IMG/VR virus record: IMGVR_UViG_3300006802_000534
Location: 1 to 24,667 of that record
DNA: 24,667 nt
Source: a virus
Strand: one strand, 5' to 3'
Part shown: positions 5,171-22,745 of the stretch, one piece after another
Numbering within the stretch: the stretch's first letter is position 1
Layout: each line of letters begins with the position of its first letter
Position numbers and translations under genes: made by a program
The notes under the pieces: generated by a model
Databases searched by the model: none
Told to the model about the DNA's origin: nothing
The model's input: the letters and a program-made list of their open reading frames with translations, nothing else

Positions 5171-5345
5171 TGGTTTTTGTCTCCACTGGTTGATCTTCCC
5201 GATCGTCGCCAAACGAATGACGCGAATCGATCTTCTTACTGACACTTTTAGCGTCGAGGCTCAATAGCTCGGCCTCGATCTCGGTCTCGGGCCGAAGCGC
5301 GACGATCGTCTTTCCGTTGATCGTTTTGTATGTTCTAGTTTTCAC
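5157..5345 (-). CDS. Small hypothetical protein between MuF-like and scaffold genes
   Basis: This 62-residue protein starts at a GTG overlapping the MuF-like gene stop as GTGA, with GAGGGTGA just upstream as the ribosome binding site. The first 25 residues look like a small beta hairpin (TYKTINGKTIVALRP), followed by a charged helix. It overlaps the scaffold start by 14 nt, so it is embedded in a translationally coupled head cassette. No known family is recognised. Codon use matches its neighbours. Confidence 0.6.
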   Translation of the reverse strand: MKTRTYKTINGKTIVALRPETEIEAELLSLDAKSVSKKIDSRHSFGDDREDQPVETKTNAKE

Positions 5346-8086
5346 TTTTCACCCTCGGCCGCTTTAAGCGCGGCCGCCTTCTCTTCTTTGCGTCGGGCCG
5401 CTCTCGCGATAGACGCTTCGAACTCGGCCTCGGCGTCGGCGAGCGCCCTCTTCCGTTTAATGTCCTCGATCGAATCGCCCTTATCAACGATCGGCCCTTT
5501 CGCGATCTGCTCGTCGAGAGTCTTCTCGCGCGCGTCAGAAACGAACCCTCGCCCCTCGCCGTCGATCTTAAACCCGATCTCTTCCTTGCGTTCTTCGATT
5601 CGTTTCTTTTCTTCGATCGCCCGGCGTCGAGCGGCCTCTTCTTGGACTGAACGATCGAAGTCGATATCGCTGTAACGGTTGTATTTACCTCGCCGGATCG
5701 CGTCCATTCGATCTTCGACGGCTTTCTCGAACCGGTCTTCTGTTGATACCTCGGCGACCTTGTCCTTCATGGATTCGCGCGCCTGCTTTGCATAACCGGC
5801 CGAGGGTCCGCCAACTACCCGAGAGCCTAGCGCCGAAAGAAACGGATCGTCGTCGTCGCCCTTGTCCGGCTTCCTGAGCGCGACACTAAACCAATCATCG
5901 ACGTCGGCCGTTTCTTGGATCGATAGTGCGACGGCCGTTCGCGGGTCTTCGTTTTTAATAAAGGCCATGATCTTTGCGAAGTCGTCCTCTTTGCCGAGTA
6001 TGACCGCGCCCGTCGTCGGGTCGACGTAGTCTTCGAGCCTCTCAGCTAACCGCTTCATGTGGTCCAGTTTAAACCCGCCGATGTCGACGGGCACTCGGTT
6101 TCCGGCCGAATAATATGTTCGAGTTCCTGAGAATATCGGGTTGCCCGTCTTCATGTGAACAAGGGTAAACGAACCGTCGCCGACGCCGTCTTCTGTCGCG
6201 ATCCCGAAGTTCCCGCTTATGACGCCGCGGACCGAAACGGCCTCGTAACCCTCGGCCCGGTTCCTGAGTACGTTAAAACTTCGTCGAGACCAGGTACCCG
6301 GCGCCGCGGGTTTTACCTTCTCGTTAACAAGGCCGAGACGGTCGCCGAGAATGTCGATCGCCTTAACGCCGTTCACCTTCTCGGCGACGAAAGACTCGGG
6401 AATCGCCGCGGCGTATTGAATTCGAAGGGTATCGAGCGCGGCGTCGAGACTGCTCTCGCCGACCTTGGTTAACCCGTTCGCGCCGAACATGCCCGAGCGA
6501 TCGAGATACTTCGCGGCGTCCTGTAGCCCTTCCTTCGAATACTCTCGGCCCTGTAGGAGCGTTCGACCGCTTGGAGTGTGTTCGAGTCGCGCTCGGCCGC
6601 TAGAGTCTTCGAGAACGCCCCACGGGCCGGCCTCGATCGCGTCTGGGTCCAAGTCGCGAGCGTTAAACGGTCCAGACTGCCAGTCGCCAGAACCGAACCG
6701 AAGCGCGGGCGGGTCTGATAGCACCAGGAATTCGCGCTGGTTGCCGTAGCGACCGTTACGCCAGCCGGGCGCGTCGACGCTCGCGAGAATTCGTCGCGTG
6801 TCCATATCCGAATAGATTACGCCGCCGTCGCGCCCGGCGAACTTCTTCGCGACGTTAACATCGTCGGTCCACGCCTCGACTGTACCGTCGATCGTGGTTT
6901 GGCTTTTTACGCCACGATATAGGCGAACCGACTCGACGCCGCGGTAATGTTCCTGCGTGTCTTCGTAGGTTCGGCGCAAGTCTGAGCGCATCTCGCCGAG
7001 ATCGCCGGGAATCGCTCGGCCTCTCGGGTTCCAGACAGCGCCGTCGAGCTCGAACTCGGTTCGCGCCGCTTCTTTGATCGCGACGGCGCCGGCCGAGTTC
7101 GAACTGTTCGTCCAATCGAGGATCAAGTCTTCGCGGCGTCGGTCGAAGGTGTCGACGGGCGCGCGTGGTGCCTGAGTCGAGGCGGTTGTCGGCGCGACTG
7201 GCGCGCGGCCGGCGAGTTCGCGGTTGCGAGCCTTCTCGGCCTCGACCCGAGCGATACCCTCTTCGACCGGCACGAGTTCGAGATCCTCGCCGTCGTCAAT
7301 CCAAGGTATTTCTTTTTCTCGGTCGTTCGGCCGGCCGGGCGGGTGCAGGAATGAGCGCCCGTCGCCGTCGACGAAGTTCTCTTCGAGATCTCGTACTTGC
7401 CCTTGCATCGGGTAGGAGTCGGAACCGGTTCGAGAGTCGAACGTTACGATCGCCGACTTGCGGACCGGTATGTCGTAAATGTCCCGGGCGTTTTTGAGCC
7501 CTTCCAAGTGCGCGCCGTTGTACGCCGTGAATAGCTCGGTTCGAAAGATTCGATCCGCTTTCCACCGTTCGGCGCCGATCGCGCTTTGTAGCGTGTCGAT
7601 AATAGGGTCGGCGAACGTCTTCGTCGCCGTCGCCGCCGAGAGTTCCTCGCGAACCCGTCGAGCGATATCCGGCCCCCAAGTCGCGAGCGAACTCGGTATT
7701 CGTTCGATCGCAGTCTGTCTTGAGAGTTCGCCAAGCGACGCCAGGTTAAGCGGCCGCGATTCCGCGCCGAACCGGTTAAGCCACGACGAAAGCTCTCGCT
7801 CGGCGTGACTCGGCGCCATTAGGAGCCCTTCGCCGAGGATCTCTTCGAGCGCGGTCTCTAGGTCGACGGTCGTTTCGAGCGCGGTTAAGCGCGCCAAGAT
7901 CTCGACCTCGCTAGCTTGCAGCGCCTCGAAGTCGGAATACTGGCGGAACTGTTGATCGTTCTCGATTCGCGCGAGCGCCCGTTCGAGCGTTCGGCCGACC
8001 CGAACCCGGGCGTCGCGCTCAAGCCTGATTAGCTGGGCGTGATGCGTTCGCGCGAGCGCGAGTATTTCGTCGGGAACTTTCGGCAT
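5342..8086 (-). CDS. MuF-like head morphogenesis protein fused to an ADP-ribosyltransferase-like domain
   Basis: This 914-residue protein is far larger than a typical gp7/MuF protein (about 250-400). Residues about 1-265 match the phage head-morphogenesis domain: helical N-terminus, then RIFRTELFTAYN (180-190) and a segment ending in FLHPPGRPNDREKEIPW (246-262), the usual conserved C-terminal loop of the family. After a linker (about 275-315), residues about 320-460 resemble an R-S-E-class ADP-ribosyltransferase: LYRG with Arg391, an AWTDDVNVAKKFAG stretch (405-418) in place of the S-T-S strand, and a Q-x-E motif (Gln450, Glu452) before FLVL. The serine position looks like Ala405, so activity is uncertain. 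Residues 460-770 are unrecognised; 770-914 are highly charged and probably coiled coil. Its start overlaps the portal stop as TAATG. MuF proteins enter the capsid, so a fused enzyme could be delivered with the DNA. Confidence 0.8.
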   Translation of the reverse strand: MPKVPDEILALARTHHAQLIRLERDARVRVGRTLERALARIENDQQFRQYSDFEALQASEVEILARLTALETTVDLETALEEILGEGLLMAPSHAERELSSWLNRFGAESRPLNLASLGELSRQTAIERIPSSLATWGPDIARRVREELSAATATKTFADPIIDTLQSAIGAERWKADRIFRTELFTAYNGAHLEGLKNARDIYDIPVRKSAIVTFDSRTGSDSYPMQGQVRDLEENFVDGDGRSFLHPPGRPNDREKEIPWIDDGEDLELVPVEEGIARVEAEKARNRELAGRAPVAPTTASTQAPRAPVDTFDRRREDLILDWTNSSNSAGAVAIKEAARTEFELDGAVWNPRGRAIPGDLGEMRSDLRRTYEDTQEHYRGVESVRLYRGVKSQTTIDGTVEAWTDDVNVAKKFAGRDGGVIYSDMDTRRILASVDAPGWRNGRYGNQREFLVLSDPPALRFGSGDWQSGPFNARDLDPDAIEAGPWGVLEDSSGRARLEHTPSGRTLLQGREYSKEGLQDAAKYLDRSGMFGANGLTKVGESSLDAALDTLRIQYAAAIPESFVAEKVNGVKAIDILGDRLGLVNEKVKPAAPGTWSRRSFNVLRNRAEGYEAVSVRGVISGNFGIATEDGVGDGSFTLVHMKTGNPIFSGTRTYYSAGNRVPVDIGGFKLDHMKRLAERLEDYVDPTTGAVILGKEDDFAKIMAFIKNEDPRTAVALSIQETADVDDWFSVALRKPDKGDDDDPFLSALGSRVVGGPSAGYAKQARESMKDKVAEVSTEDRFEKAVEDRMDAIRRGKYNRYSDIDFDRSVQEEAARRRAIEEKKRIEERKEEIGFKIDGEGRGFVSDAREKTLDEQIAKGPIVDKGDSIEDIKRKRALADAEAEFEASIARAARRKEEKAAALKAAEGEK

Positions 8087-9523: not shown

Positions 9524-10993
9524 TTATGCCACCAGGTCGAAAGCGTCGAAGCTCAAGCCCTTCGTGATTTCTTCCGTTACGAAGAGTCGGTTTCGCTTCG
9601 CTTCTGTATAGACACCATAACGCAAAGCATCAACCGAGTGATCGCCCTCTTTGACCGGCTTGCCGCTGCTGTCGTCTTTCCAGCGGTACGAAGCAAGTTC
9701 TCGTCGAAGGTTCTTACAGTCTTCGTGGATATAGAGCGTCGGCCGCATAACACCATCAGCTCGGCGAACCGGCTTAAGCAGCGTCGCCAGAAGATCTATC
9801 CCGGGATTTACCGAGTTATCGGCGCGGCGAATATCGAGCTTTTCTTGTCTAAACATTACAATGTTCGCGGGCTCGCTCGGGTCGGCCCAAGCGTGCGCGA
9901 CGCCGCGCTTCTCGGCCGCCTTAAATCGGTCGCGCCACGAGTCGACGCCGATCGAATCGGGGGGAGGCATAAGAGGCAGCTCGCGTTGATAGTCTTCGCG
10001 GTAGGCGATCAAATAGCCTTCGAGCGTTAGACCGATCTCGATTTGCGAGCCCGGGTTACTGTGCCCCCAGTCGATCCCGGCGAACCTACGGTAAACGCTC
10101 GGCGGTATGCTCTTAACGATGTGCGTCGCGTCGTCGACGAAGTCTTCGAACACCTTACCCTCGAACGCGTCGAAGCTCGCTTCGTAGTTCCGAAGGTATA
10201 GCGCCTTCGAGAGTGTCGCCTTAGCCTCGGCCGCTTCTGCCACGAGATGCGGTAGCGAGGTATTGTCGACGGTTCTAAAGTGAATGTTCGCATAACCCTC
10301 GCGCGACTGAGCCCAAAGATCCGAATGTACCCAATTCTTGCCCATTGGCGTGGTTGTGAACAGCGACCAGCCTAGCCGATCGGATAGCGCCGGGCGCAAG
10401 TTATCGGCCCACGTTGCCGACTTGATTCGCGCCGCTTCGTCGAGCCAGGCACCATTGAGACCCGAACCCACAAGTCGAAGCGGGTTGTCGGCCGATTTGA
10501 ACTCGATCAAGATTCCTCCGCGCAGCCACAACGCGTTCTCGGTCGACGAATAACGAAGAATCAAGGGCGAGTCGACGCCGCCCAAGATCTCGAAGATCTC
10601 GCGCCGCTGGTAGACGCCGAGAGCATAGGTCGGCGCTACGCACCAATACCACGTGAACGGCTTAGTCTCGGCCGATATCCTCGCCGGTGCGGTCCACGTT
10701 GCACCCTTGCCGACCTCGGCCCAATAGTCGCGAACGATGCGTTTAAAGAACTCTCGGCCGCCGCCGTAGGTCTTGCCCGAGCGTCGACCGGCGACAACCG
10801 TAACGAAGCGGTTCTCAATCATTGCTTGCGCGAGGTTTTCCTGCGCGCCGTGCGGGTGGTACGTCGAAAGGTGTTCACGGGCGAACGCTTCGATCGAAGG
10901 GAAGCTCTCGCCGATCCCGCCCGTGATTCTTTGGAATAGCGGCGCCAGCTTTGCGAGCGCGCCGTTAGTGTAATTTCGTGAGTTTGTTTTCAT
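9524..10993 (-). CDS. terL: Terminase large subunit
   Basis: The ATG at 10993 gives 489 residues, overlapping the small terminase gene by 29 nt; the open frame continues upstream but that part is out of family and inside terS. The ATPase domain shows a Walker A-like GRRSGKT (69-75), preceded by VTVVA, and a Walker B LDEAAR (184-189) with the catalytic Glu next to Asp185, plus a coupling-motif-like FTTTPMGKNW (212-221). The nuclease domain has the RNase H-like acidic residues in FAGIDWG (Asp308), AWADPSEP (Asp371) and GDHSVDALRY (Asp451, Asp455). The protein pumps DNA into the prohead and cuts the concatemer. All key residues appear present, so it should be active. Confidence 0.95.
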   Translation of the reverse strand: MKTNSRNYTNGALAKLAPLFQRITGGIGESFPSIEAFAREHLSTYHPHGAQENLAQAMIENRFVTVVAGRRSGKTYGGGREFFKRIVRDYWAEVGKGATWTAPARISAETKPFTWYWCVAPTYALGVYQRREIFEILGGVDSPLILRYSSTENALWLRGGILIEFKSADNPLRLVGSGLNGAWLDEAARIKSATWADNLRPALSDRLGWSLFTTTPMGKNWVHSDLWAQSREGYANIHFRTVDNTSLPHLVAEAAEAKATLSKALYLRNYEASFDAFEGKVFEDFVDDATHIVKSIPPSVYRRFAGIDWGHSNPGSQIEIGLTLEGYLIAYREDYQRELPLMPPPDSIGVDSWRDRFKAAEKRGVAHAWADPSEPANIVMFRQEKLDIRRADNSVNPGIDLLATLLKPVRRADGVMRPTLYIHEDCKNLRRELASYRWKDDSSGKPVKEGDHSVDALRYGVYTEAKRNRLFVTEEITKGLSFDAFDLVA

Positions 10994-11531
10994 CGCCCAA
11001 AACTTCGAGAAGTGAGTCGACGGCGAGTGCTCTCGATTCCTGCTCGGCCGCGGTCTCGAAAAGTTTTGCGGTTGCTTGAATGAATTTCGGAAGTTCGCGC
11101 GGGCATAACACGAGTTCGGTGTCTTTCTCGAAGACTTCGAGCGAACGCTCAATAATTGCCATCGCTCGGATCGCGTTACGGGTCGACGCCTCGGCATAGC
11201 TGAGAAGTCGCTCGCGGAACCCGTTTAACTTGGCGACGTGGTCGATCTCCATTCGGGCGACGCTTGCGGCGTCCTGATACCGATCGAAGGCCAGCACGCG
11301 GGCGACCCAATCGTTCGCCGAACTCCACGCGGCGAAGTATCCCGGCGCCCGTTTGTTCTTTGGCGGTTCGCCGGTTCTCTCGACGGCGTAGGCGCTCCAC
11401 GCGGCGAGCATAGTCCGCTCGATCGGGACCATGTCGCGGTAATACTTAAACGCGGCCCATTGGGCGTCAGTTTCGCGCTGTAGGCGTTCCCAAGGTTCGG
11501 CCGGGCGTTCTGTCGTCTGTTCGTCTAACAT
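10965..11531 (-). CDS. terS: Terminase small subunit-like protein
   Basis: This 188-residue protein starts at an ATG with a clear GGAG (ACGGAGACGC) upstream. It is helical, with an N-terminal segment PWERLQRETDAQWAAFKYYRDM (read as two pieces around residue 20-37) followed by an R-x-x-x-x-A-x-x-W pattern and W-V-A-R-V-L-A-F-D-R-Y (about 75-85). Such Trp-rich helical stretches are common in phiKZ-unrelated siphophage small terminases that recognise the packaging site. The remaining 90 residues are long helices suited to ring formation. Immediate linkage and overlap with terL supports the name. The packaging site itself could not be located in this window. Confidence 0.75.
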   Translation of the reverse strand: MLDEQTTERPAEPWERLQRETDAQWAAFKYYRDMVPIERTMLAAWSAYAVERTGEPPKNKRAPGYFAAWSSANDWVARVLAFDRYQDAASVARMEIDHVAKLNGFRERLLSYAEASTRNAIRAMAIIERSLEVFEKDTELVLCPRELPKFIQATAKLFETAAEQESRALAVDSLLEVLGDENKLTKLH

Positions 11532-12075: not shown

Positions 12076-12831
12076 CTAGCCTAAGAGCGCTTTTTTCGCG
12101 GTGGCCACTGTGTGGGGAGTCTGGGCGTTGCCAAGGGCCGTAAGTCGGTCCACCCGATCGGGAACCCCATAAGCCATTCGATCCATTCTGGGTTCAACGG
12201 TCCAGATACTACCATCGAGAGATTGACCTGTTTCCCGATCGCGATCCGGCGTTTCACGACCGGATCTTCTGGGTTGCCTCGATTCCGAGAGTCGGCGGCC
12301 GCAGGTGTCGGAACACTCGATATCCCGCAAGGTGGCGGCGATCCAAAGCCGATCGCGCTTATGCGGTGCGCCAACGTCGGCAGCTCCCAAGATTCCCCAC
12401 TCAAGATCATACCCGAGTTCGGCCAGGTCCCCGAAAACCGTTTCGATATATCTATGTTTCCCAGACATGAGGCCGGGCACGTTCTCCAAGAATAGGAATC
12501 GCGGCACCACTTGGCGAATGACTCTAACGGTAGCCGGCCACATGTTCCGCGTGTCGTCTGCGCCCTTCTGAGTTCCCGCCGTAGTGAAAGGCTGACACGG
12601 GAAACCGGCCGAAACGACGTCGACAAGACCTCGCCAAGCCGTACCGTCGAAACTTCGCACGTCATCCCAGATCGGGCACTCGTGCAGAAGTCCATCTGAC
12701 ATTCGAGCCTGAAGGATTGCGGCCGCGTAGCGGTTCCATTCGACGCAGCACACTGTATCCCAGTCGCCATACGTCCCCAGCAGACCGCCTCCAATACCTG
12801 CAAAGAGCGCGAGTTCTTTCGGCTTATCCAC
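12076..12831 (-). CDS. DNA (cytosine-5)-methyltransferase
   Basis: This 251-residue protein starts at a GTG just after the stop of the upstream gene. It shows the C5-methyltransferase motifs in order: motif I LALFAGIGGG (8-16, SAM binding), motif IV GFPCQPF (76-82) with catalytic Cys79, motif VI LENVPG (115-120), motif VIII KRDRLWI (158-164), and motif X GNAQTPHTV near the C-terminus (about 232-240). The part between motifs VIII and X is only about 65 residues, so the target-recognition region is short. It transfers a methyl group from SAM to cytosine, and in phages such enzymes usually protect DNA from host restriction. No cognate nuclease is nearby. A second frame is also open over the same DNA but lacks any of these motifs. 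The gene lies between two copies of a promoter cassette. Confidence 0.93.
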   Translation of the reverse strand: MDKPKELALFAGIGGGLLGTYGDWDTVCCVEWNRYAAAILQARMSDGLLHECPIWDDVRSFDGTAWRGLVDVVSAGFPCQPFTTAGTQKGADDTRNMWPATVRVIRQVVPRFLFLENVPGLMSGKHRYIETVFGDLAELGYDLEWGILGAADVGAPHKRDRLWIAATLRDIECSDTCGRRLSESRQPRRSGRETPDRDRETGQSLDGSIWTVEPRMDRMAYGVPDRVDRLTALGNAQTPHTVATAKKALLG

Positions 12832-12832
12832 A

Positions 12833-13030
12833 TTAAGACCCCGCGAGCGCGTCGAGCTGTGATAGTGCGTCGGCGGCGTTTCGATAGTGATTCATGATCC
12901 CGTGGACGAAGATCATGTCGAGCGCCGGAACAACTACGATCGTACCCTTGCCCATAACCTCGCCAAAACTCGGGTGCTGACCCGGTTTAAATCCGCGCTT
13001 TTCGAGTTCTTTCTTAAAATTCTTATTCAT
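12833..13030 (-). CDS. Small hypothetical protein paired with the cytosine methyltransferase
   Basis: This 65-residue protein starts at an ATG (13030) with the AAGGATCGACC leader and ends two bases before the methyltransferase start, so both are probably made from one transcript. It begins with a basic helix (MNKNFKKELEKRGFKPG), then shows a G-K-G-T-I-V-V-V-P strand and a C-terminal helix. No known domain is recognised. The genetic pairing suggests a partner or regulator for the enzyme, but nothing in the sequence proves it. Confidence 0.6.
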   Translation of the reverse strand: MNKNFKKELEKRGFKPGQHPSFGEVMGKGTIVVVPALDMIFVHGIMNHYRNAADALSQLDALAGS

Positions 13031-13110
13031 GGTCGATCCTTCGATGTTTGTTTCCTAACGCCCCCAGAAGATAGCGACGCCCTTCTCGCCCGTCAACCAT
13101 TATTATTGTT
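13026..13110 (-). repeat. Promoter/leader cassette, copy 1
   Basis: Matches the copy at 11991-12073 in two exact 20-nt blocks: 13026-13045 (ribosome binding site and start region) and 13091-13110 (upstream element plus -35). The second block overlaps the stop codon of the XF1762-like gene, which ends in TAA at 13103-13105. Confidence 0.9.
13068..13096 (-). promoter_or_regulatory. Sigma70-like promoter for the small gene and cytosine methyltransferase
   Basis: Minus-strand TTGACG (13096-13091), 17 bp, then TATCTT (13073-13068). An AT-rich element lies directly upstream. The -10 is closer to consensus than in the second copy. Predicted transcription start is about 30 nt before the ATG at 13030. 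Confidence 0.65.
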
Positions 13111-13555
13111 TAAGTTGAAGCGACCAGCGCGTCTTGACCTCGGGCCTTTCGGCGTTCTCACGATCACGTGAAACGCGGCCCCAGTTTCCGCCGCCCGCCT
13201 GTCCGTCGCTCACCCAGTTTGACGCCCTGAGGCTCGCGCCGCCCTCTTCTGGCAACGTATATGTGACGATCTTCTCATAGCCCATGCTCTTTGCGATCCT
13301 CACCGCGGCACCGTAAAGCATAGAGCAAGCGTTACGTGCGCCGTCAGTGGCAACGCGCGTAACTTCAAGCGTGAACCCGTCGTCAAGCATTCGCGCAACT
13401 GGTCGGCCGACAATGGCAACGCCTCGGATCTCACCGGCCTCGTCAGTCACTGACAAAACGAAGACCGCGCCGGCCGGAGCCCTTAAGTGTCGGTGATGGT
13501 CTGCGACGAAAGCCTTTGCGGCTTTATGTGTGATCGGGCTTAGCTTGATTCGCAT
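13103..13555 (-). CDS. XF1762-like (GNAT-fold) phage protein
   Basis: This 150-residue protein resembles the XF1762 family common in phages of Gram-negative hosts. Family-like features are KAAKAFVADHHRHL (residues 12-25), the strand FVLSVTDEAGEIRGVAIVGRP (32-52 region, read in parts), a core V-T-R-V-A-T-D-G segment (about 65-72), the helix CSMLYGAAVRIAKSMGY and a C-terminal G-G-N-W-G-R-V/R-W motif. The layout is that of an acetyltransferase-like fold with a candidate acyl-CoA loop, but the catalytic role is unknown for the family. It is the last gene of the early leftward operon, and its stop codon overlaps the next promoter's upstream element. An AGGTAGGT ribosome binding site precedes its ATG. 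Confidence 0.75.
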   Translation of the reverse strand: MRIKLSPITHKAAKAFVADHHRHLRAPAGAVFVLSVTDEAGEIRGVAIVGRPVARMLDDGFTLEVTRVATDGARNACSMLYGAAVRIAKSMGYEKIVTYTLPEEGGASLRASNWVSDGQAGGGNWGRVSRDRENAERPEVKTRWSLQLKQ

Positions 13556-13569
13556 GTACCTACCTCGCT

Positions 13570-14271
13570 TTAGATCTCGAATCTAGGCCAGGTCGTGAGC
13601 GTTCGCCCCTTCTCGCCGTGCTCTCGATCCCAAATAAACCATGCAGACGTGCAGTTATTCTGGTTCCTCGCGTTGATATAGTGAACCCTCGGGAGAATTA
13701 GGATCTCGGTCGGCGGATCGTCGAATAGGATCTGAGCCCGGTCTTTGCACGGTTCGAGCATCGTTAACCGCAAGAGCATCGCGACCGAAGCGCCCGTCGC
13801 TAACATCTTCTTAACGAAGTCGCTCGCCATAACGGTTCGCCCGTCGATCTTGATAACGAAAGGCGGGTTCGAGACGTACCAGTCGACGCCGGCGAAGGGT
13901 TCTTCGACCAGGAAGTCGCGCGCCGGCATATCGGCGCCCCTGCCTCGGTCTCGCGACCAGTGGAACGAATCGGCGCCCGGGTCGATATCCGTTCCGAGGT
14001 AGTGCGTTACGGGCTCGTGCATTCGAAGCGCGCGACCGATCCAGTCGGCCCCACAGCAAGGCTCGTGCACTTTGCCGGCGAGACGGTCGCCGAGGTACGC
14101 GAGAAGAGGCTCGGTCGCCGAGACGGGCGTGTAATACCGATCGAGAGAGTCGCGCTTCGACTTCTTCTTCTTTGGTTTCTCGACCTCGGCGTCGGCCGCG
14201 CAATAGGAGCACGGCCGCTCGAATATTTCACGAGAGCACTTGTCGCAGTGGTCGATCTCGTATTCGTTCAT
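13570..14271 (-). CDS. Putative N6-adenine-type DNA methyltransferase with N-terminal zinc knuckle
   Basis: The ATG at 14271 shares ATGA with the upstream stop and gives 233 residues; a GTG at 14280 in frame is an alternative. Residues 9-24 carry Cys9, Cys12, Cys21 and Cys24 in a C-x2-C-x8-C-x2-C arrangement, likely binding zinc. After a Lys-rich linker comes D-R-Y-Y-T-P (44-49), a HEPCCGADWIG motif I (69-79) for SAM binding, Y-L-G-T-D-I-D (91-97), and the catalytic motif IV S-N-P-P-F (134-138), typical of amino-methyltransferases. A C-terminal alpha/beta half follows. It probably modifies phage DNA, and may give protection together with the cytosine enzyme. The target base is inferred from S-N-P-P-F only; a protein or RNA substrate is not excluded. 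Confidence 0.75.
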   Translation of the reverse strand: MNEYEIDHCDKCSREIFERPCSYCAADAEVEKPKKKKSKRDSLDRYYTPVSATEPLLAYLGDRLAGKVHEPCCGADWIGRALRMHEPVTHYLGTDIDPGADSFHWSRDRGRGADMPARDFLVEEPFAGVDWYVSNPPFVIKIDGRTVMASDFVKKMLATGASVAMLLRLTMLEPCKDRAQILFDDPPTEILILPRVHYINARNQNNCTSAWFIWDREHGEKGRTLTTWPRFEI

Positions 14272-14480
14272 TTTACCCACCTTCCGTTCTTAAATTCTCG
14301 AAGCGATTCGCCGGGCTCGTCAATCCAGTCGACTGTCACAATATTAATTGATCCGCACTTTACACACGTAATCTTACCGACGTCGCGATCGGCCACAACG
14401 CCGATCCAGATCGAATAACACTCACGACAAACGAGCGTGATAGCGTTCCAGCCTATTCGGCCGACGACTTCGCCGCTCAT
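14268..14480 (-). CDS. Small zinc-ribbon protein
   Basis: This 70-residue protein has two Cys pairs, C-R-E-C (residues about 18-21) and C-V-K-C (39-42), separated by about 17 residues, as in a minimal zinc ribbon. Short beta strands flank the pairs. It overlaps both neighbours by ATGA, the characteristic coupling of this operon. Small zinc ribbons of this kind bind nucleic acids or partner proteins in many phages. No specific function can be claimed. Confidence 0.6.
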   Translation of the reverse strand: MSGEVVGRIGWNAITLVCRECYSIWIGVVADRDVGKITCVKCGSINIVTVDWIDEPGESLREFKNGRWVK

Positions 14481-15678: not shown

Positions 15679-15726
15679 GTTCTGACCCTCGTTTTTGCGC
15701 CAGCTCGGCCGGCGCGGTTGTAATAT

Positions 15727-16032: not shown

Positions 16033-16679
16033 GGTTCGAGCCCTTCCTTCCAAGGAATCACGCCGACCGATTCCCAATTCGCCGAAGCGGTCGCCGCGGT
16101 CGCGGTATTCGGCGGATCAAGGTTGTTGGCGAGCCTTCGAAGCTCGGCGCCGATCTTGTTTGCTTCTCGAAGCACGTCGTCGCGTTGCTTCTTAACTTCC
16201 GAAAACTGTTCGAATGCCTTCGAGCTGGCTTCGTCGAACAGTCGCTTCGTCGTATCGAGTCGCGATTGTAGGCGGTCGGCCCGTTCGATTGCGGCGTCGC
16301 TCGGTAGCGACTTCGAGTCGAGAAGGTCTTCGAACGCCTTATTCGCGGCGAGCGTCGGGTCGAACCCGAGCGCGGCGACTATGTTTCGGTATTCTTTCGC
16401 GGCGTTCTGGCGGTTATCTGCGACCAGACTACCGACGAAGTATTCACACGCGGTTTTGAGTCGATCGAGAGTTACGCCGCTAACGTCCTGACTGCATCCG
16501 TTTTGGTGCGAGCATAGTGTAGGCGCGAGCGCGAGTTCGGCCTTCAACCGTTCGATCTCTTCGTCGGCCTGCTTCGAGACCGCGCTTATTCTGGCCTGCA
16601 GAGTGTCGACGGTCGCGTTGTAGTGTTCCAACCGGATAAAGCCGGGCGGAACTTCCTGATAGGGTTTCTCGCCACTCAT
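16029..16679 (-). CDS. Coiled-coil hypothetical protein
   Basis: This 216-residue protein starts at an ATG forming ATGA with the XRE gene stop. It is mostly helical: an N-terminal coiled coil (LQARISAVSKQADEEIERLKAELALA, read across residues 28-54), a middle helical domain with a single pair C-S-H-x-x-G-C (57-63 region), and a long C-terminal coiled coil (about 130-190). The last 25 residues are Thr/Ala-rich. Such proteins are common as uncharacterised early genes of siphophages. It is coupled with the regulator upstream and may act with it, but this is only inference from position. Confidence 0.6.
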   Translation of the reverse strand: MSGEKPYQEVPPGFIRLEHYNATVDTLQARISAVSKQADEEIERLKAELALAPTLCSHQNGCSQDVSGVTLDRLKTACEYFVGSLVADNRQNAAKEYRNIVAALGFDPTLAANKAFEDLLDSKSLPSDAAIERADRLQSRLDTTKRLFDEASSKAFEQFSEVKKQRDDVLREANKIGAELRRLANNLDPPNTATAATASANWESVGVIPWKEGLEP

Positions 16680-16897
16680 AGCGAACCGCCTTCGACCGGC
16701 GCGCCGATCGTGAACGAACCGAGTTCGGTCGAGAGCCTAAGAAGGCTCGTAATCGTCGGCGCGACTTCGCCCCGTTCCCACGCCCCTAGGTGGCCCTGCA
16801 TCGTTCCCACCTTCTCGGCGAGCGCCTTCTGAGATAGTCGAAGGTCGACTCGCCGTTCGCGAATTGCCTTCCCGAGTTCTTCGATGTTCTGGATCAT
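16676..16897 (-). CDS. XRE-family (Cro/CI-type) transcriptional regulator
   Basis: This 73-residue protein is essentially a single helix-turn-helix domain: AIRERRVDLRLSQKALAEKVG (residues about 11-31, read in two helices), then a turn and recognition helix MQGHLGAWERGEVAPTITSLLRLS. The L-S-Q-x-x-L-A-x-x-V-G and W-E-R-G patterns are diagnostic of the family. It lacks a dimerisation or peptidase domain, so resembles a Cro-like repressor or a plasmid/phage antirepressor partner. A good ribosome binding site (AGGAGACGAAC) precedes the ATG. It may bind operators in the 18.7-18.9 kb non-coding region; no operator match could be proven. Confidence 0.88.
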   Translation of the reverse strand: MIQNIEELGKAIRERRVDLRLSQKALAEKVGTMQGHLGAWERGEVAPTITSLLRLSTELGSFTIGAPVEGGSL

Positions 16898-16906
16898 GTT
16901 CGTCTC

Positions 16907-17401
16907 CTACTTGATTACGGTTCTATTCCACTGTGTTAACGTTTCGGCCTCTTCGAGAATCGCCACGTCGACCGCGCCGGACTTGAACGCCATTAACTCG
17001 ACTTGATCGAAGAGTTCGTCGCCGGACCGATTAGGCGCCGTCCCGAACTCTTCGAAGTATCGAATGACGTGTCTGGCGTCGATCCTGAATCGCTCGCGCT
17101 TGACCTCGTGCCGAACGTCGAGCCCGGCCGCTTTGCGATCGAGAGCAACGCGACAGAGTCGAACGTTGCCACCGTAACCATTTTCGCACCTAACGTCTAG
17201 CAGGTTGTCGGGCGATATCATGCGGCCGAGGTAGTGACAGCAAAAGTCAATATGGTCCGCCAGACTGTACGTCGGCAAGTTCCCGCGCTTCGACTTCGAG
17301 ACCGCGCCGGCCGCGGTTCGGTTTGGTTGATACAGCTCGGCGAGCCAGGTCTCGATCTGTTCGGCGATCTCGCGTTCGTCGGCCTTGGTTGTTACTCGCA
17401 T
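16907..17401 (-). CDS. Hypothetical early protein
   Basis: This 164-residue protein overlaps the upstream regulator gene by 10 nt. It has an N-terminal helix (DEREIAEQIETWLAELYQP), a middle part with two Cys near H-I-D-F-C-C-H-Y-L, a C-E-N-G-Y-G-G-N-V-R-L-C-R strand, and basic segments (DVRHEVKRERFRIDARHVIRYF, about 98-119). No fold or catalytic pattern is recognised. The location between two XRE genes suggests a role in early control, but only by association. Confidence 0.55.
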   Translation of the reverse strand: MRVTTKADEREIAEQIETWLAELYQPNRTAAGAVSKSKRGNLPTYSLADHIDFCCHYLGRMISPDNLLDVRCENGYGGNVRLCRVALDRKAAGLDVRHEVKRERFRIDARHVIRYFEEFGTAPNRSGDELFDQVELMAFKSGAVDVAILEEAETLTQWNRTVIK

Positions 17402-17727
17402 CGTAGTCGAGCCTCTTCTTTGGCCTTCCTCGACTGGTAGCGCGCTTCGTCTCGCTCGCTCAACGGGTAAAGCTCGGCGACCAGTGCGTCGATCCGTTGT
17501 CGGTTCGCTTCACGCTCGGCGAACGCTCGGTCGAATACGTCGCCGGCGCAATCGGCGATAATGTCGAGCACGGGTCGCTTGCCGGTCTCAAGAAGCGCAA
17601 CGTAGGATTGCGAAAGTTCCAGCCTCTCGGCAAGTTCGATCTGCGTCAGTCCGGCTTCGAGTCGGCATTCGCGAAGTGCAGCTATCACGCGGGCGCGCGC
17701 GAAGCGGGGCTCACTGTTTTTTGTCAT
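17392..17727 (-). CDS. XRE-family transcriptional regulator
   Basis: This 111-residue protein carries an N-terminal helix-turn-helix (residues about 14-55): ALRECRLEAGLTQIELAERLELSQSYVALLETGKRPVLDII, recognised in pieces by L-T-Q-x-E-L-A-x-x-L and S-Q-S-Y-V-x-x-x-E-T-G-K-R. The C-terminal half is an Arg/Glu-rich helical tail that may support dimerisation. It is coupled by ATGA to the upstream gene. With the second XRE gene at 16676 it forms a pair of regulators in one early operon, which is typical for a phage switch. Targets are unknown. Confidence 0.88.
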   Translation of the reverse strand: MTKNSEPRFARARVIAALRECRLEAGLTQIELAERLELSQSYVALLETGKRPVLDIIADCAGDVFDRAFAEREANRQRIDALVAELYPLSERDEARYQSRKAKEEARLRCE

Positions 17728-18419
17728 CGGTCGGCCTTATGTATAACGCCGGTTCCATCGCAAAAAGTGCATGAGAGACCGTTCGAATTATCTTCGATTC
17801 CTGACCCGTGACAGACCCCACAGGGAGCGCCTGAGAAGCCCCCAGATTGATTTGTTTCGACCGCCTTAGCACTCACGACGGCAAAGCCCTTCGAAGCGTC
17901 CTGCGTCGATTCTGGAGCGGTACACGGCTTAACCAATCGCTCGACGTCGGTTAACGAAAGTTGCAACGCTTCGAAAAGATTTTGCTCGAATATCCCAGAC
18001 CGGCCGAGCTTGTCAGCGTTCCGCAAAACATTATACCGCCAGCCTTCGTGACGCTTAACGCTTGCCCGGGCCGCGTAAAGCTCTCGGCGAACCTCGGCGA
18101 GTTCGACTCGAAGGTCGTTTCGTTCGGCCTCGTGCTCGGCGAGGATCTGCTCGCGCCACGATTGCGAATCATCGGCGTCGAGACCGACGTCGGCCGCAAG
18201 CTCTCGAAGTCGTTCCATCCTTTCGGGTTGTTTGCGAACGATAAACTCGTCGAAGGCGTTCGAGATCTGGTCGAAGTTGGGCTCGCCGTCGAGTGTGTAA
18301 CCCTTAGCGCCGAGCGCGTCGACCATTGCGACCTGAACTTCGTCTAAGCCAGGCTCGGCGGCCTCGGGCGATTTGGCGAAGATGTTAAGTTTTTGAAGTG
18401 TGGTTCGAATCGGTTTCAT
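17724..18419 (-). CDS. Hypothetical early protein with DnaJ-type cysteine motifs, first gene of the leftward early operon
   Basis: The ATG at 18419 gives 231 residues and is preceded by CGAGGGTCAAAAC; an upstream start would lie within the promoter. Residues 1-60 are helical with a possible small domain; a coiled coil spans about 90-130. The C-terminus contains two C-x2-C-x-G-x-G repeats, CGVCHGSG (200-207) and CTFCDGTG (217-224), as in DnaJ zinc fingers but with only one pair of repeats, so it should bind a single zinc ion. It is the first gene behind promoter 18448-18476 and is followed by an XRE regulator, consistent with an early role. Function is otherwise unknown. Confidence 0.65.
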   Translation of the reverse strand: MKPIRTTLQKLNIFAKSPEAAEPGLDEVQVAMVDALGAKGYTLDGEPNFDQISNAFDEFIVRKQPERMERLRELAADVGLDADDSQSWREQILAEHEAERNDLRVELAEVRRELYAARASVKRHEGWRYNVLRNADKLGRSGIFEQNLFEALQLSLTDVERLVKPCTAPESTQDASKGFAVVSAKAVETNQSGGFSGAPCGVCHGSGIEDNSNGLSCTFCDGTGVIHKADR

Positions 18420-18447
18420 GTTTTGACCCTCGTTTGTGAGGATCGAA

Positions 18448-18476
18448 GAAATAACCGCGCCGGTTGTTGGCGTCAA
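18448..18476 (-). promoter_or_regulatory. Sigma70-like promoter for the leftward early operon
   Basis: Minus-strand TTGACG (18476-18471), 17 bp, then TATTTC (18453-18448). Upstream is an AT-rich GTTAAAAGAAC. The predicted transcript starts about 20-25 nt before the ATG at 18419, leaving a leader that carries the CGAGGGTCA ribosome binding site. Confidence 0.6.
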
Positions 18477-18507
18477 GTTCTTTTAACGGTTCGTTCGATT
18501 TGGGTTG

Positions 18508-18711
18508 GTTCGACGGCGTAAGCGTCGATCGCTTCGACCGGCCGCTTCCCGCCTGAAAAGGGCCGAGGCGATAGCTTGAGCGACCTACAAGGGTCGAGGA
18601 CCGCAGTGTTAGCGCCAGCGGTAAACGAGGAGCCCGGCGAAGCAAGGGCGACAGGTTCGACACCCGGTAGGGCGGGACAGCTTTAGCTTCCCCCCTTTAG
18701 GGGGGAGAAAG
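18508..18711 (+). other. GC-rich, hairpin-rich non-coding block
   Basis: About 200 nt without a credible gene. Read on the plus strand it contains several local stems: TCGACG/CGTCGA (18510-18515 with 18523-18528), CGACC/GGTCG with a 6-nt loop (18581-18596), ACCGC/GCGGT (18600-18622), GCCC/GGGC (18632-18649), and a C6/G6 stem with TTTA loop (18690-18705) flanked by CTTT/AAAG. A possible long-range pairing TCCCGCC/GGCGGGA could close the block. This density suggests either a structured RNA or a DNA element of an origin; the sequence alone cannot tell. No T tract follows the last hairpin. Confidence 0.45.
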
Positions 18712-18714
18712 TGA

Positions 18715-18783
18715 CTGCACTAATTTAATGTGTGATCTCAGTGTGTTAGCTCGTTATATATAAATTAGTGAATTCTGCACTAA
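18715..18783. repeat. AT-rich block with inverted and direct repeats
   Basis: CACTAATTTA (18718-18727) and its exact inverse TAAATTAGTG (18761-18770) flank 33 nt that include TTATATATAAA. CTGCACTAA also occurs directly at 18715-18723 and 18775-18783. Together with the next repeats this is the most AT-rich spot in the window and a candidate unwinding element or operator cluster. Confidence 0.7.
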
Positions 18784-18802
18784 CTCGCTATTTTTCGCCG
18801 AG

Positions 18803-18832
18803 CGTATAGGGTAGCCTAGGGCTACCTATACG
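18803..18832. repeat. Imperfect 13-bp inverted repeat
   Basis: CGTATAGG-G-TAGCC and GGCTACCTATACG form a near-perfect palindrome with one unpaired G and a TAG centre. It may be an operator for one of the XRE regulators, or a cruciform element in an origin. It is not followed by a T tract in either direction. Confidence 0.7.
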
Positions 18833-18856
18833 GGTTTATCTCAAAATTCGAAAACC

Positions 18857-18889
18857 GAGATAGTGTTGCGGAAATAGAGATAGTGTTGC
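18857..18889. repeat. Tandem 13-nt direct repeats (iteron-like)
   Basis: GAGATAGTGTTGC occurs at 18857-18869 and again at 18877-18889, a 20-nt period (about two helical turns). An inverse half-site TATCTC lies at 18837-18842. Such in-phase repeats upstream of an operon are typical binding sites for an initiator or a regulator. They end 64 nt before the start of the MazG-like gene. Confidence 0.75.
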
Positions 18890-18953
18890 CGATAGGATCG
18901 TAACCGTGAAACTAGCTAATCAGGCTGTTTCTGTAATAAACGAGGGTCAAAAA

Positions 18954-19505
18954 ATGAGTAAAAGAATTACCGTTCGAGAGTATCGAGCGTTCTGTGAAAC
19001 CATGTATTCTTGCCCGCCAGGAACCGATCGAGAGACCTATCTCGAATGGTTGCTCGCCGAAGAGTTGGGCGAAGTCGCTTCGCTATTCTCGAAAGCAATA
19101 AGGGACGGCGCCGTCTTGTCGACGCACTTAGGCACGATCACCGTATACGGTCCCGACGCCGTTCTCGTGCACAACCGACACCTGCTAGAGAAAGAACTCG
19201 GCGACGTCATGTGGGCCGCGGTCATGATGGACCGGTACAACGTCCCGAGCGCCGGGAACGACTTCGACAAGTATCAGGATCAATGGCCTAGCGGCATGAC
19301 CGAGAACGTGCAGAACGCGAGCATGGAATTCCGCGAGTGGAATCAATACGTCTGGTCCCACCAGACCCATACCGAGTTCGAAGCGATTTGCGCGGTCTCG
19401 CGCGGGTTCGGGTTCGATCCTGAGCGAGTCGCGCTCGCCAACGTCGCGAAGCTCAAAAGCAGAAAGGCGCGCGGCGTCGTTCACGGCGCGGGCGGCGACC
19501 GATGA
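18954..19505 (+). CDS. MazG-like nucleotide pyrophosphohydrolase
   Basis: The ATG at 18954, with the AACGAGGGTCAAAAA leader, gives 183 residues; a GTG at 18906 would add 16 residues that span the leader and is less likely. The all-alpha metal-binding motifs are present: E-E-L-G-E (residues 36-40) in the first helix and E-L-G-D (81-84) in the second, forming the E-x2-E ... E-x2-D set that binds Mg2+. The C-terminal K-x-x-K-S-R-K-A-R-G-V-V-H-G-A-G-G-D-R resembles the tail of phage MazG proteins. The enzyme likely hydrolyses (d)NTPs or alarmones to monophosphates, altering nucleotide pools or host ppGpp signalling. It opens the short plus-strand operon ending at the exonuclease. Confidence 0.85.
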   Translation: MSKRITVREYRAFCETMYSCPPGTDRETYLEWLLAEELGEVASLFSKAIRDGAVLSTHLGTITVYGPDAVLVHNRHLLEKELGDVMWAAVMMDRYNVPSAGNDFDKYQDQWPSGMTENVQNASMEFREWNQYVWSHQTHTEFEAICAVSRGFGFDPERVALANVAKLKSRKARGVVHGAGGDR

Positions 19506-19696: not shown

Positions 19697-19853
19697 GAAA
19701 CGAATAACGACGATCGAAAAACTGAGAACCCGGCGCGAGTATCGAAAGACTTTAGCGCGACTTCGCGCCGAACATGAAAAACAAAAGCAACAAGAGAAGC
19801 GGCGAATCGCCGAACTACAATCGGGCCGAGAGGCTGAAAACGAGGGTCAATAA
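19686..19853 (+). CDS. Short basic coiled-coil protein
   Basis: A 55-residue gene starts 11 nt before the previous stop and ends TAA overlapping the next ATG (TAATG). The product is a single highly charged helix (start MRIKKRITTIEKLRTRRE), rich in Arg, Lys, Glu and Gln, with clear coiled-coil character. It resembles small helical phage proteins that bind nucleic acid or a partner. The tight coupling on both sides and matching codon use support it as a real gene. Its last codons also supply the GAGGGTCA ribosome binding site of the exonuclease gene. Confidence 0.6.
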   Translation: MRIKKRITTIEKLRTRREYRKTLARLRAEHEKQKQQEKRRIAELQSGREAENEGQ

Positions 19854-20419
19854 TGACAAAGCGAAAAGAACTTATTCTATGGATCGATCTTGAAACTACC
19901 GGGCTCGACCATGAGGCCGACCCGATTCTCGAAGTCGGTTACATTTTGACCGATACCGACCTCGCGAAACTCGCCGAGGGTTCGCACGTCGTACGAAAGC
20001 ACGCGAGCGCCGAGCGCCGACTCGCCGCTAACGATTACGTGCGAGCAATGCACAAGGCTAGCGGTCTTCTCGAAGAGCAAGAGAACACCTTCGATTGTAT
20101 GCACCTCGGAACCATCGAAGAGAAATTGATCGGACTACTCGACGAACACGGCGACGAAGACACCGTCGCTTACCTCGGCGGGAACTCGGTACACTTCGAT
20201 CGAAGGTTTATCGCGTACGATATGCCAGAACTCGACGCCAGGCTCTCGCATAGGCACTTCGACGTTCGAGTCTTCGAGCTTGCCGAGTCATTCTGGAGCG
20301 ACGATCGAAAGCTCGTGTCGTCCGGCGAGTCGAAGCACCGCGCGCTCGACGATATCAATTACAGCCTCGACGTCGCAAAGGCAGCGCGGGCTCGCCGGTT
20401 TAAACCTTCCGACCTCTAA
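19853..20419 (+). CDS. Oligoribonuclease-like DEDDh 3'-5' exonuclease
   Basis: This 188-residue protein is the usual size of oligoribonuclease (about 180). It shows all three exonuclease motifs: Exo I W-I-D-L-E-T-T-G-L-D (10-19; Asp12, Glu14), Exo II G-N-S-V-H-F-D-R-R-F (110-119; Asp116) and Exo III H-R-A-L-D-D (162-167; His162, Asp167), and the family-like ILEVGYILTD (25-34). Oligoribonuclease degrades 2-5 nt RNA to monophosphates; a phage copy could recycle nucleotides or clear nanoRNA and signalling dinucleotides. A role as a DNA exonuclease in replication cannot be excluded. Its 3' end overlaps the convergent primase gene by 20 nt. Confidence 0.88.
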   Translation: MTKRKELILWIDLETTGLDHEADPILEVGYILTDTDLAKLAEGSHVVRKHASAERRLAANDYVRAMHKASGLLEEQENTFDCMHLGTIEEKLIGLLDEHGDEDTVAYLGGNSVHFDRRFIAYDMPELDARLSHRHFDVRVFELAESFWSDDRKLVSSGESKHRALDDINYSLDVAKAARARRFKPSDL

Positions 20420-22745
20420 ACGGTAAGACGTTCGAATCAGGGTCGACCGACCCGATCTCGAATTCGTTGTCGTCGTAATGCCAGCGCGTCGCCAAAACTT
20501 CCGACTCGAACTCGACGAGATAACCGTTCGTCTTGTCTTTATAGTGCGTCGGCGCGCATGGCATTAGCTCGCCGTATTCGTCGGCGAGTTCGGTTAGTTC
20601 GGTTACGACGTACCCGTGACTTCGAGAGTCTAGCGCGCGCAATCCTAGCGCGGCGCCATCCGAAAAGCGGACATAACCGCGCGTCGCATACTCACTCAAG
20701 AGAACTTGAATTCGGCGCGGACCGGGTAAGTCGGTCTCGGCCGACAGAACCTCGGCGAGCTGTTTCGGGGCGTAGAGTTCGCCGCGCCGCGCTCGCTCGT
20801 TTATCTCAAGCAAGATCCGATTACGTTGTCGCCGACCCTCGGCGTTCCATGCTTGAAGCTGGGTCTCGCCCGCTTCGATCTCGTGGTCCTTTCCAACGTC
20901 GACGAAGTCGCCGTCGCGATACTCGACACGTTTCGGCCCGGGCGCCATGCCGGCCCGAGTGTCAAAAAACACCATTCGATCGTCTGTGTCTTCTGAGATC
21001 TTCGAGATGAAGATCGCGCTCGTGTAATAGCCTCGAAGCGCCGAAGCGCCGCGCAAAGCATTGAACGGATCTTCGATCATCTCGCGCCGGTTCGTCTTGT
21101 TCGCATGATGCAGGATAATGATCCCGGCGTCTGGGTTTATCAGGTCTCGGAACTCATCGAGAAGTCGAAGAAAGACGAACATCTCGGCGTTCGAATTTTC
21201 GTTCCCGTCGTACATGTTTTGGAGCGGGTCGAAGACCAGCACGTCGGGCGGTGCGCCCTTGTCTGGGTAGCTCGCTTGAACAAAGTTTAAGTAGTGCGGG
21301 AACGTGTCGCGATTGAACGGCGCGACGCACTTCTCGGTGTAGATAAAGTTCCGCGAAAGTCTGTCTTTTTCGGTCGGCGAGTACCCGGTTGTTTGCCTAA
21401 AATTGTGGATTCGAGAGCGCATCATATCGGCGGACATTTCGAACTGAATCAGGAACACGCGCAAAGGACGAAGTGGTGCGAATCCGAACCAGGGTTCGCC
21501 GATCGCCATTTTACAGGCCAGCTCTAAGAGCATGAGCGATTTTTGACTCTTAGGCGGACCGGCGATAACCGAGAGGGTACCTTTAGGCAGAAGGCTTTGG
21601 ATTAGGTGCGGTTCGTACGGCGTTCGATCTTCCCAAGCATCGGCGAACGACATCGTTTTAATATTCGAGAAGGGCGAACCGGCGACGCCGGCGTCGTGCG
21701 AAAGGGCTCGAAGGCTCTCGGCGTTGCCGAAGTCGGGGACCCGGCCCGAGCCTTCCGCCTGTCTTTGGATCGACTGCATAATCGAAGTCACGAACCCGAT
21801 CGCGTTGATAAATGGATCATTCGTCTTCGAATAGGGTTCGCTCGGGTCCAGAAATAACGGCTTATCATGCGCCCGCAAGTCGAACGCCACGATCTCGCGA
21901 GCTGTAATGCTGACGTCTTTACCAGCGGCGAGACAAGCGGCCGTCATAGCTTTTAAGGAATCGTTTCGACCTCTCGGCCCCGTAACGTCGCCGGGCGCGC
22001 TAGGCGCTCCACTGGCGCCCGTGTAAAGGTATTTGTCGGGCGACTCGCCGGCGAGAACAAGGTCGACAACCTCTTCGAACGTACTCCAATCGTATCGGAT
22101 GTTTTTGTCAGACTCGACGGTTACAACGTGTCCGCCCTCGCGCTTCCAGTTTATTAAGCCAGGCAGTCGAAGCAAGCACGCAAAGTTTCGGGTTATGTTC
22201 GAATCGAGACCGAAGCCAAACGCTCGCGCCGACTTCTGAAGCATAGCCTCGAAGAGGCTCGCGTCGCGCTTGCCTTCCATCCAATCACCGGCGCCAAAGT
22301 CGCGGGGCTCGGTCGCTCGCCAGTACAAGTGGAACCCGCCGCCCGAGTGTATGATCGTCGACGGCTTGATCGGGAGTGAAGCGATCCACGCTCGCGCAGC
22401 GTCGAAGGTGGGGGCGATTGCGCCGGCTTGCTTGTGTCCGCCCGCTTCGTATACGTCGACCTCGGCCCACATTCCCGGCGAGCACGAGACGAAGGATTCG
22501 TCGCCACGATCGCCGGGCGCCGGAAGTCTTGAGACCGGCGCGACCCTCAAGTAACAGTTATCGCCGTTCGCGTTTCGGCGGATCGCTTCTTCGACCGCCA
22601 TTTGATAACCCTCGGCGATCGCGTAACAGCTCGTCGAGACCCGGCCGTCGCGAATAAAGGTTAGCTGTAGATATCCACGATCGACGAATTCGAACCAATT
22701 CGTTAGGAATTCCGACGCGATTGCGCCGGCTTGGCTGCTTTCCAT
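20400..22745 (-). CDS. Primase/helicase fusion (AEP-like primase plus RepA/DnaB-type ATPase)
   Basis: This 781-residue protein has an N-terminal region resembling an archaeo-eukaryotic-type primase/RepB fold: an acidic pair in W-A-E-V-D-V-Y (Glu95/Asp97), H-S-G-G-G-F-H-L-Y-W (133-142) and L-L-R-L-P-G-L-I-N-W (191-200). The first acidic motif is E-V-D rather than D-x-D. A linker (about 230-365) leads to a hexameric RecA-like helicase: Walker A G-P-P-K-S-Q-K-S (396-403), Walker B D-V-L-V-F-D-P-L (501-508), I-I-I-L-H-H-A-N-K (542-550) and an arginine-finger-like R-G-A-S-A-L-R-G-Y-Y segment (565-574). It would prime and unwind phage DNA. It is transcribed opposite to the plus-strand genes on each side. 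A 7-bp hairpin lies before its start. Confidence 0.85.
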   Translation of the reverse strand: MESSQAGAIASEFLTNWFEFVDRGYLQLTFIRDGRVSTSCYAIAEGYQMAVEEAIRRNANGDNCYLRVAPVSRLPAPGDRGDESFVSCSPGMWAEVDVYEAGGHKQAGAIAPTFDAARAWIASLPIKPSTIIHSGGGFHLYWRATEPRDFGAGDWMEGKRDASLFEAMLQKSARAFGFGLDSNITRNFACLLRLPGLINWKREGGHVVTVESDKNIRYDWSTFEEVVDLVLAGESPDKYLYTGASGAPSAPGDVTGPRGRNDSLKAMTAACLAAGKDVSITAREIVAFDLRAHDKPLFLDPSEPYSKTNDPFINAIGFVTSIMQSIQRQAEGSGRVPDFGNAESLRALSHDAGVAGSPFSNIKTMSFADAWEDRTPYEPHLIQSLLPKGTLSVIAGPPKSQKSLMLLELACKMAIGEPWFGFAPLRPLRVFLIQFEMSADMMRSRIHNFRQTTGYSPTEKDRLSRNFIYTEKCVAPFNRDTFPHYLNFVQASYPDKGAPPDVLVFDPLQNMYDGNENSNAEMFVFLRLLDEFRDLINPDAGIIILHHANKTNRREMIEDPFNALRGASALRGYYTSAIFISKISEDTDDRMVFFDTRAGMAPGPKRVEYRDGDFVDVGKDHEIEAGETQLQAWNAEGRRQRNRILLEINERARRGELYAPKQLAEVLSAETDLPGPRRIQVLLSEYATRGYVRFSDGAALGLRALDSRSHGYVVTELTELADEYGELMPCAPTHYKDKTNGYLVEFESEVLATRWHYDDNEFEIGSVDPDSNVLPFRGRKV

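Follow-up and report, generated by a model that had tools for sequence, protein, structure and literature searches.

A candidate replication origin in the largest gene-free gap of a phage genome record

The largest gene-free gap of the window (the whole 24,667-base stretch of the phage record) extends over 534 bases between the likely starts of two divergent genes at 18419 (-) and 18954 (+). Judged from its sequence and from the sequences of two relatives, this gap is probably the replication origin of this phage group, with a rough probability of 0.6. It is under constraint, contains the AT maximum, and keeps its layout and spacing in a distant relative in which the letters of the short sites have changed and the flanking genes are different. 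Features known from the origins of IncQ plasmids and of the crenarchaeal pRN1 are joined in it, and it is therefore taken as an origin. The decisive features, namely the site array, the AT-rich stretch and the palindrome, are located to the right of the GC-rich element (18508-18711) that had been marked in a preliminary description of this DNA. The coordinates of all features are shown in Table 1.

Table 1. Features of the gap and associated genes (window coordinates; G001, close relative; G002, distant relative)
Feature	Position	Strand	Remarks
Whole gene-free gap, candidate replication origin	18420-18953		between divergent genes; layout matched in G001 and in G002 at the syntenic position
GC-rich block, imperfect end-to-end rod (predicted)	18541-18711	+	diverged homologue in G002
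TCCCGCC/GGCGGGA closure	18547-53 / 18671-77		broken in G001 by G18551C
CGACC/GGTCG hairpin	18581-85 / 18592-96		broken in G001 by C18595A
ACCGC/GCGGT stem	18600-04 / 18618-22		broken in G001 by T18622C
C6/G6 hairpin, arms	18690-95 / 18700-05		flanks CTTT 18681-84 and AAAG 18708-11; intact in G001
Perfect C6/G6 hairpin, right end of block	18689-18706		G002 counterpart CCCCTCTC..GAGAGGGG
Most AT-rich 100 bases of window (65% A+T)	18696-18795		counterparts are the AT-richest 100 bases of G001 and G002
Site 1, CACTAATTTA, i.e. TAAATTAGTG leftward	18718-18727	-	unchanged in G001
Site 2, TAAATTAGTG	18761-18770	+	unchanged in G001
Site 3, CACTAA	18778-18783	-	head to head with site 2; unchanged in G001
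Palindrome CGTATAGGGTAGCC/GGGCTACCTATACG	18803-18832		counterpart in G002, its spacing to sites 3 and 4 nearly the same
Site 4 and first direct repeat, GAGATAGTGTTGC	18857-18869	+	unchanged in G001
Site 5 and second direct repeat	18877-18889	+	spacing from site 4, 20 nt; in G002, three copies spaced 21 nt
781-aa primase-helicase, proposed origin user	20400-22745	-	primase-like N-terminal part and RepA-type AAA_25 helicase
Modification cluster genes	12081-12833, 13103-13555, 13570-14280

Extent, surroundings and conservation of the gap

With the longest possible reading frames in place of the likely starts, the gap shrinks to 429 bases. The next largest gap of the record has 254 bases, and the earlier statement that more than 500 nt without a gene are exceptional here is borne out. 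To the left lies a leftward operon, the first gene of which (17724-18419) has no assigned function; to the right lies a rightward operon starting with a MazG-like gene (18954-19505). Neither tRNA nor tmRNA genes were found in the window.

Three sequences were compared, which amount to two independent ones: the window, a close relative (G001, IMGVR_UViG_3300008255_000023) and a distant relative (G002, IMGVR_UViG_3300013233_000361; 49,281 bases). The G001 contig of 45,487 bases has ends that overlap by 123 bases, and the genome is therefore probably closed at 45,364. G002 has the gene order in common with the window, with identities of 62% for the terminase, 60% for the portal, 59% for the capsid and 64% for the primase-helicase. 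Scans of the IMG/VR viral sequences gave no further relatives extending to the gap region, and an exact-pattern search of IMG/VR with the gap had one match, G001 itself. The same type of search in genome contigs had no match, and DNA searches with the gap found none in annotated phages or plasmids. A terminase profile search of genome contigs produced one remote match (28% over part); two terminase relatives (L043, L071) were too short to reach the gap. Among the 38 loci found via MazG, G001 was set aside and none of the rest was similar to the gap in nhmmer and blastn comparisons. In text searches of the literature, no paper was recognised as describing this gap element.

The gaps of all three sequences have a common layout, from left to right: a GC-rich block with an end-to-end rod fold, a GC hairpin without a T run, the AT-richest 100 bases of each sequence, short sites in a fixed array, a palindrome, and 20-21-nt repeats in direct orientation. 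In G002, too, the AT-rich stretch includes inverted copies of a short site. Genes on both sides of the gap (17724, 18954 and 19853) have no tblastn match in G002, in which the primase-helicase is matched at 64%. The layout is therefore not tied to the present neighbour genes, and the gap is not simply their control region. A relative of the first leftward gene was found in the viral scan in G001 only. At its end, the product of this gene carries two CxxCxGxG-like pairs; it matches the DnaJ zinc domain weakly (E 0.0048, below cut-off).

Fourfold-degenerate sites of 13 genes were used as a neutral yardstick, 303 of 1966 being different between the window and G001 (15.4%). Against this background, 12 of the 413 positions of 18541-18953 differ, with 7 of 171 in the GC-rich block (binomial 2e-6) and 5 of 242 in 18712-18953 (binomial 4e-12), indels not counted. 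The segment 18488-18540 changes at the neutral rate (8 substitutions and one indel in 53 bases). The conserved object, as delimited by this comparison, is thus 18541-18953, larger than 18508-18711 and shifted to the right. The preliminary bounds include the GC-rich left part but cut the object in half, leaving out its right half, which is the more constrained one.

Left of the neutral segment, 18440-18487 is unchanged in G001 and may hold the leftward promoter. A promoter-like TTGACG-17-TATTTC, reading leftward from 18475, was seen by eye; a search of the gap with the promoter consensus found none, with 0.5 expected. Both divergent first genes are preceded by a common 15-base leader, AAACGAGGGTCAAAA (18421-18435 and 18938-18952), the arms of which are 100% complementary. 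Parts of it occur again at 19838-19850 and 15683-15694, and in G001 at 42455-42474; the leader is probably the ribosome-binding consensus of the phage.

The detrended GC-skew minimum is located at 18224 in the window, at 411 in G001 (gap 640-1173) and at 6696 in G002 (gap 4978-5577). A minimum near the gap is only supporting evidence, since gene direction also flips here, and GC skew and AT-richness are expected at a divergent promoter region as well.

The GC-rich block and its predicted fold

All four pairings named in the preliminary description are present, but three of them lose a pair in G001, each through one substitution (Table 1), and the small hairpins are therefore not what is conserved; only the C6/G6 hairpin stays intact. 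The long-range TCCCGCC/GGCGGGA closure belongs to the minimum-energy fold of 18500-18715 and was rejected as broken in G001. The fold of the window depends on the ends chosen: slightly different ends also favour a rod, another choice does not.

On the + strand, the fold of 18500-18715 has a z of -2.31 and was equalled by 4 of 200 dinucleotide shuffles; the corresponding values for the - strand are -0.87 and 42 of 200. With RNA parameters, the z scores are -2.2 (window), -2.5 (G001) and -5.0 (G002) on the + strand vs -0.8, -0.8 and -4.9 on the - strand. The end-to-end character was expressed as the number of pairs between the first and the last third of the 171-181-nt block, in comparison with 100 shuffles. 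For the + strand, the number of such pairs is 21.1 in the window (reached by 5 of 100 shuffles), 35.2 in G001 and 39.2 in G002 (by 0 of 100 each), and for the - strand 13.3 (21 of 100), 13.7 (22 of 100) and 39.3 (0 of 100), respectively. With DNA energy parameters, the rod of G001 is not end to end (2.4 pairs, a number reached by 69 of 100 shuffles) and that of the window is weak (reached by 16 of 100), which argues against a purely single-stranded DNA role.

The block of the window aligns with that of G002 at a score of 56, reached by 1 of 300 shuffles (35.2, sd 5.7); to the left of the block the two sequences have no such likeness (score reached by 186 of 300 shuffles). A consensus of the three sequences is a rod of 54 pairs with 90.1% of cells paired, 15 of the 54 pairs being changed on both sides. 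As a null, the G002 sequence was shuffled and realigned in 100 sets. On the + strand, one set matched the energy and one the doubly changed pairs (null mean 8.6); on the - strand, none matched the energy and seven matched the doubly changed pairs. Both strands beat the null in consensus energy, so that + and - are both candidates for the strand of the rod. If the G001 fold is moved onto G002 via the alignment, 11 doubly changed pairs result, vs 10-19 in slid versions. Of 57 predicted pairs, 5 are at exactly the same place in G001 and G002, and 40 agree within two columns. On these three sequences, of which two are close, the rod form is thus supported at a level of roughly one in a hundred; compensatory changes pair by pair, the check proposed in the preliminary description, did not exceed the slid controls.

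No Rfam family matched at its gathering score anywhere in the window, in agreement with the earlier failure to recognise an RNA family; the best match below threshold was whalefall-1 (E 0.06, 18.1 of 37 bits). At the right end of the block, no T run comes after the C6/G6 hairpin, the next bases being AGAAAGTG (+) or AAGCTAAA (-), and the hairpin was not called as an intrinsic terminator. The GTG at 18711-18713 of the window is GTT in G001 (G18713T). To the left of the block in G002 (L072 4396-4442, minus strand), a strong hairpin and then six T, reading rightward, were seen by eye. The hairpin is not preceded by a rightward gene; it could be a terminator, or a hairpin at the 5' end of the leftward messenger.

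AT-rich stretch, site array and palindrome

In all three sequences the AT-richest 100 bases belong to the gap, where they adjoin the block on its right or share its last bases. The AT part of the window aligns with that of G002 at a score of 54 (shuffles 27.7, sd 4.8; 0 of 300 as high). All five short sites are unchanged in G001, and the sole G001 change in the palindrome, at 18819, is at its centre. The window and G001 have sites reading TTAGTG/ATAGTG, and G002 has TTAGGGAA/ATAGGGAA, a core change from TTAGTG to TTAGGG.

The geometry of the array is retained under this change of letters. Order and orientation are identical in the window and G002 (left, right, left, right, right), with a third right copy in G002, and the spacings are 46, 14, 81 and 20 vs 47, 13, 76 and 21. 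The centre of the palindrome is 36.5 and 44.5 nt away from its neighbouring sites in the window vs 34 and 42 in G002, and the hairpin end is 16 vs 14 nt away from site 1. When six sites were placed at random in 220 nt, orientation and spacing agreed within 5 nt in 4 of 200,000 trials. The gap contains 5 of the 6 site copies of the window, 5 of the 6 of G001 and 6 of the 8 of G002, figures that overstate the surprise, since the motifs were picked after seeing the repeats. Two direct repeats at 20 nt (window, G001) or three at 21 nt (G002) are accompanied by three single or inverted sites. A gap of Gordonia phage Sour, a distant parallel with a related helicase, has no repeats of this kind.

Interpretation and comparison with known systems

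The protein proposed to use the origin is a primase-helicase common to all three phages, the gene of which is separated from the gap by 1.4 kb in the window and by about 0.2 kb in G002. The protein matches AAA_25 at 1.5e-27 and has primase-type PHROG matches; residues 374-628 of the G002 protein have about 30% identity to a plasmid 'helicase RepA family protein' (E 1e-10). A possible winged-helix-like pattern was read by eye in the C-terminal sequence. In a sequence search of the PDB, the full-length profile had no match and the C-terminal profile nothing significant. AlphaFold2 models of the 781-aa protein and of its C-terminal 175 aa had a pLDDT of 39 and were not used.

In the proposed mechanism, a putative initiator would bind the five TTAGTG/ATAGTG sites of 18718-18889 (left, right, left, palindrome, right, right) and melt the adjoining AT-rich stretch, at which the fused primase/RepA-type helicase would enter. 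The GC-rich rod would then be exposed as a folded single strand, on which primase or helicase could assemble and the first primer be made, a role modelled on the ssi hairpins of IncQ plasmids and the stem-loop of pRN1. That the rod is a single-stranded DNA priming site is a tentative suggestion. As no end-to-end rod results for G001 with DNA parameters, a transcribed RNA acting at the origin is about as likely, and is itself a doubtful possibility.

The oriV of IncQ plasmids has an AT-rich part. Its likeness to the gap consists of a RepA-type helicase and of direct repeats of about 20 nt adjoining a hairpin structure, as known from RSF1010 with its iterons, ssiA/ssiB hairpins and RepA/RepB/RepC (PMC6925257, PMC4434180, PMC4234260). 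According to passages in two of these papers, RepC is the iteron-binding protein and RepA the unwinding one, and the hairpin sites are where the primase begins (PMC6925257, PMC4434180). In contrast to IncQ, primase and helicase are one protein in the phage, no RepC counterpart is among the proteins identified, the sites of the array point in both directions and include a palindrome between them, and the folded block has about 170 nt instead of about 40 nt. The GTG primer motif, which is found 3' of the RSF1010 ssiA hairpin, is present in the window but not kept in G001. With the pRN1 origin (and phage BIP-1) the gap has in common a fused primase-helicase replication protein and possibly a long stem-loop conserved in form more than in letters, which in pRN1 is needed by that protein (PMC4234260). 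The pRN1 protein differs in combining an AEP primase, an SF3 helicase and a winged helix, whereas the phage helicase is AAA_25/RepA-type. Furthermore, pRN1 has no iterons, and its stem-loop is close 3' of the replication gene, a position resembled in G002, with its gap near the 3' end of the gene, and not in the window. The proposed origin would work like those of both systems but belongs to neither group, since G001 lacks the GTG primer motif, the helicase is of another type than SF3, and the proteins identified include no iteron-binding one. The iteron origins of phages P4 and lambda, compared by description only, are alike in being phage origins with repeats bound by a phage initiator. The lambda iterons are located inside the O gene. 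P4 differs in its Toprim primase, part of a primase-helicase-origin-binding protein (PMC4234260).

The main alternative is a divergent early control region, in which the sites would be operators of a phage regulator for the leftward and rightward early promoters, with the GC-rich block as leader or spacer. The position between divergent operons, the HTH_3 regulators encoded at 16676-16897 and 17392-17727, the operator-like head-to-head arrangement of sites 2 and 3 and the promoter-like sequence leading leftward from 18475 all fit such a region. However, the array is kept in G002 although the flanking genes differ, and the single direct sites 20-21 nt apart suit iterons better; the consensus search, moreover, found no promoter in the gap. 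HTH_3 had no match over the 49,281 bases of G002 and one in G001, and seven early reading frames of G002 that were tested had none; the operator reading is weakened by this lack of a counterpart and is considered unlikely.

The preliminary description had left the choice between a new structured RNA, a DNA element of an origin and a packaging-related site; the origin is favoured by the present data. A rod-shaped small RNA encoded by 18541-18711, read rightward and independent of replication, would explain why the + strand folds better than the - strand, above all for the window and for G001, and why doubly changed pairs are in excess in the consensus rod. Against it stand the lack of a promoter-like site in the consensus search of the gap, neutral evolution of the 53 bases directly upstream, the missing terminator T run, the absence of an Rfam match and the failure of the transferred G001 fold to exceed the slid versions; an RNA of this kind is improbable. 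A packaging (cos/pac) site or packaged-genome end, suggested by inverted repeats in a gene-free gap, receives no support and is very improbable: the terminase genes are 7 kb off (9524-11531), the contig-end overlap of G001 is at another place, and the layout has nothing specific to packaging. Least credible is a decayed gene, the outcome that had been named as speaking against a functional element. A 92-aa frame (18385-18663, -) does overlap the block, but this frame conflicts with a better gene that it overlaps. The comparison with G001 gives indels at 18515 and 18554, substitutions that lack a three-base period, and constraint far above neutral, all of which oppose it.

If the gap is an origin, it could, as a speculative further step that is itself unlikely to hold, represent a new class of phage origins, in which a one-protein primase/RepA-type helicase uses a rod of about 170 nt (single-stranded DNA or RNA) as initiation platform beside sites of fixed geometry whose letters co-evolve with a putative initiator. 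Related phages would then have mutually incompatible origins. The origins of most uncultured phages stay unrecognised because their sequences do not align. The present element can be recognised by geometry and not by letters, and offers a handle for origins in phages with primase/RepA-type helicases. The TTAGTG/TTAGGG pair, moreover, amounts to a natural experiment in the joint change of specificity of origin and initiator.

Several proteins of these phages were noted in addition. A 914-aa head-region protein of the window (5342-8086) aligns to part of a 1385-aa frame of G002 (L072 13043-17200) with 52% identity over 828 aa, the G002 frame having a long extension. G001 encodes a 724-aa protein (L066 8869-11043) that starts with a NADAR domain at its N-terminal end (9.8e-27) and also matches PD-(D/E)XK nucleases weakly, below cut-off. 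The modification cluster is part of the leftward operon and consists of a Mom-like protein (PHROG 1384, 1.2e-35) flanked by two DNA methyltransferases; the early region of G002 contains an MT-A70 methyltransferase (L072:6539-7156).
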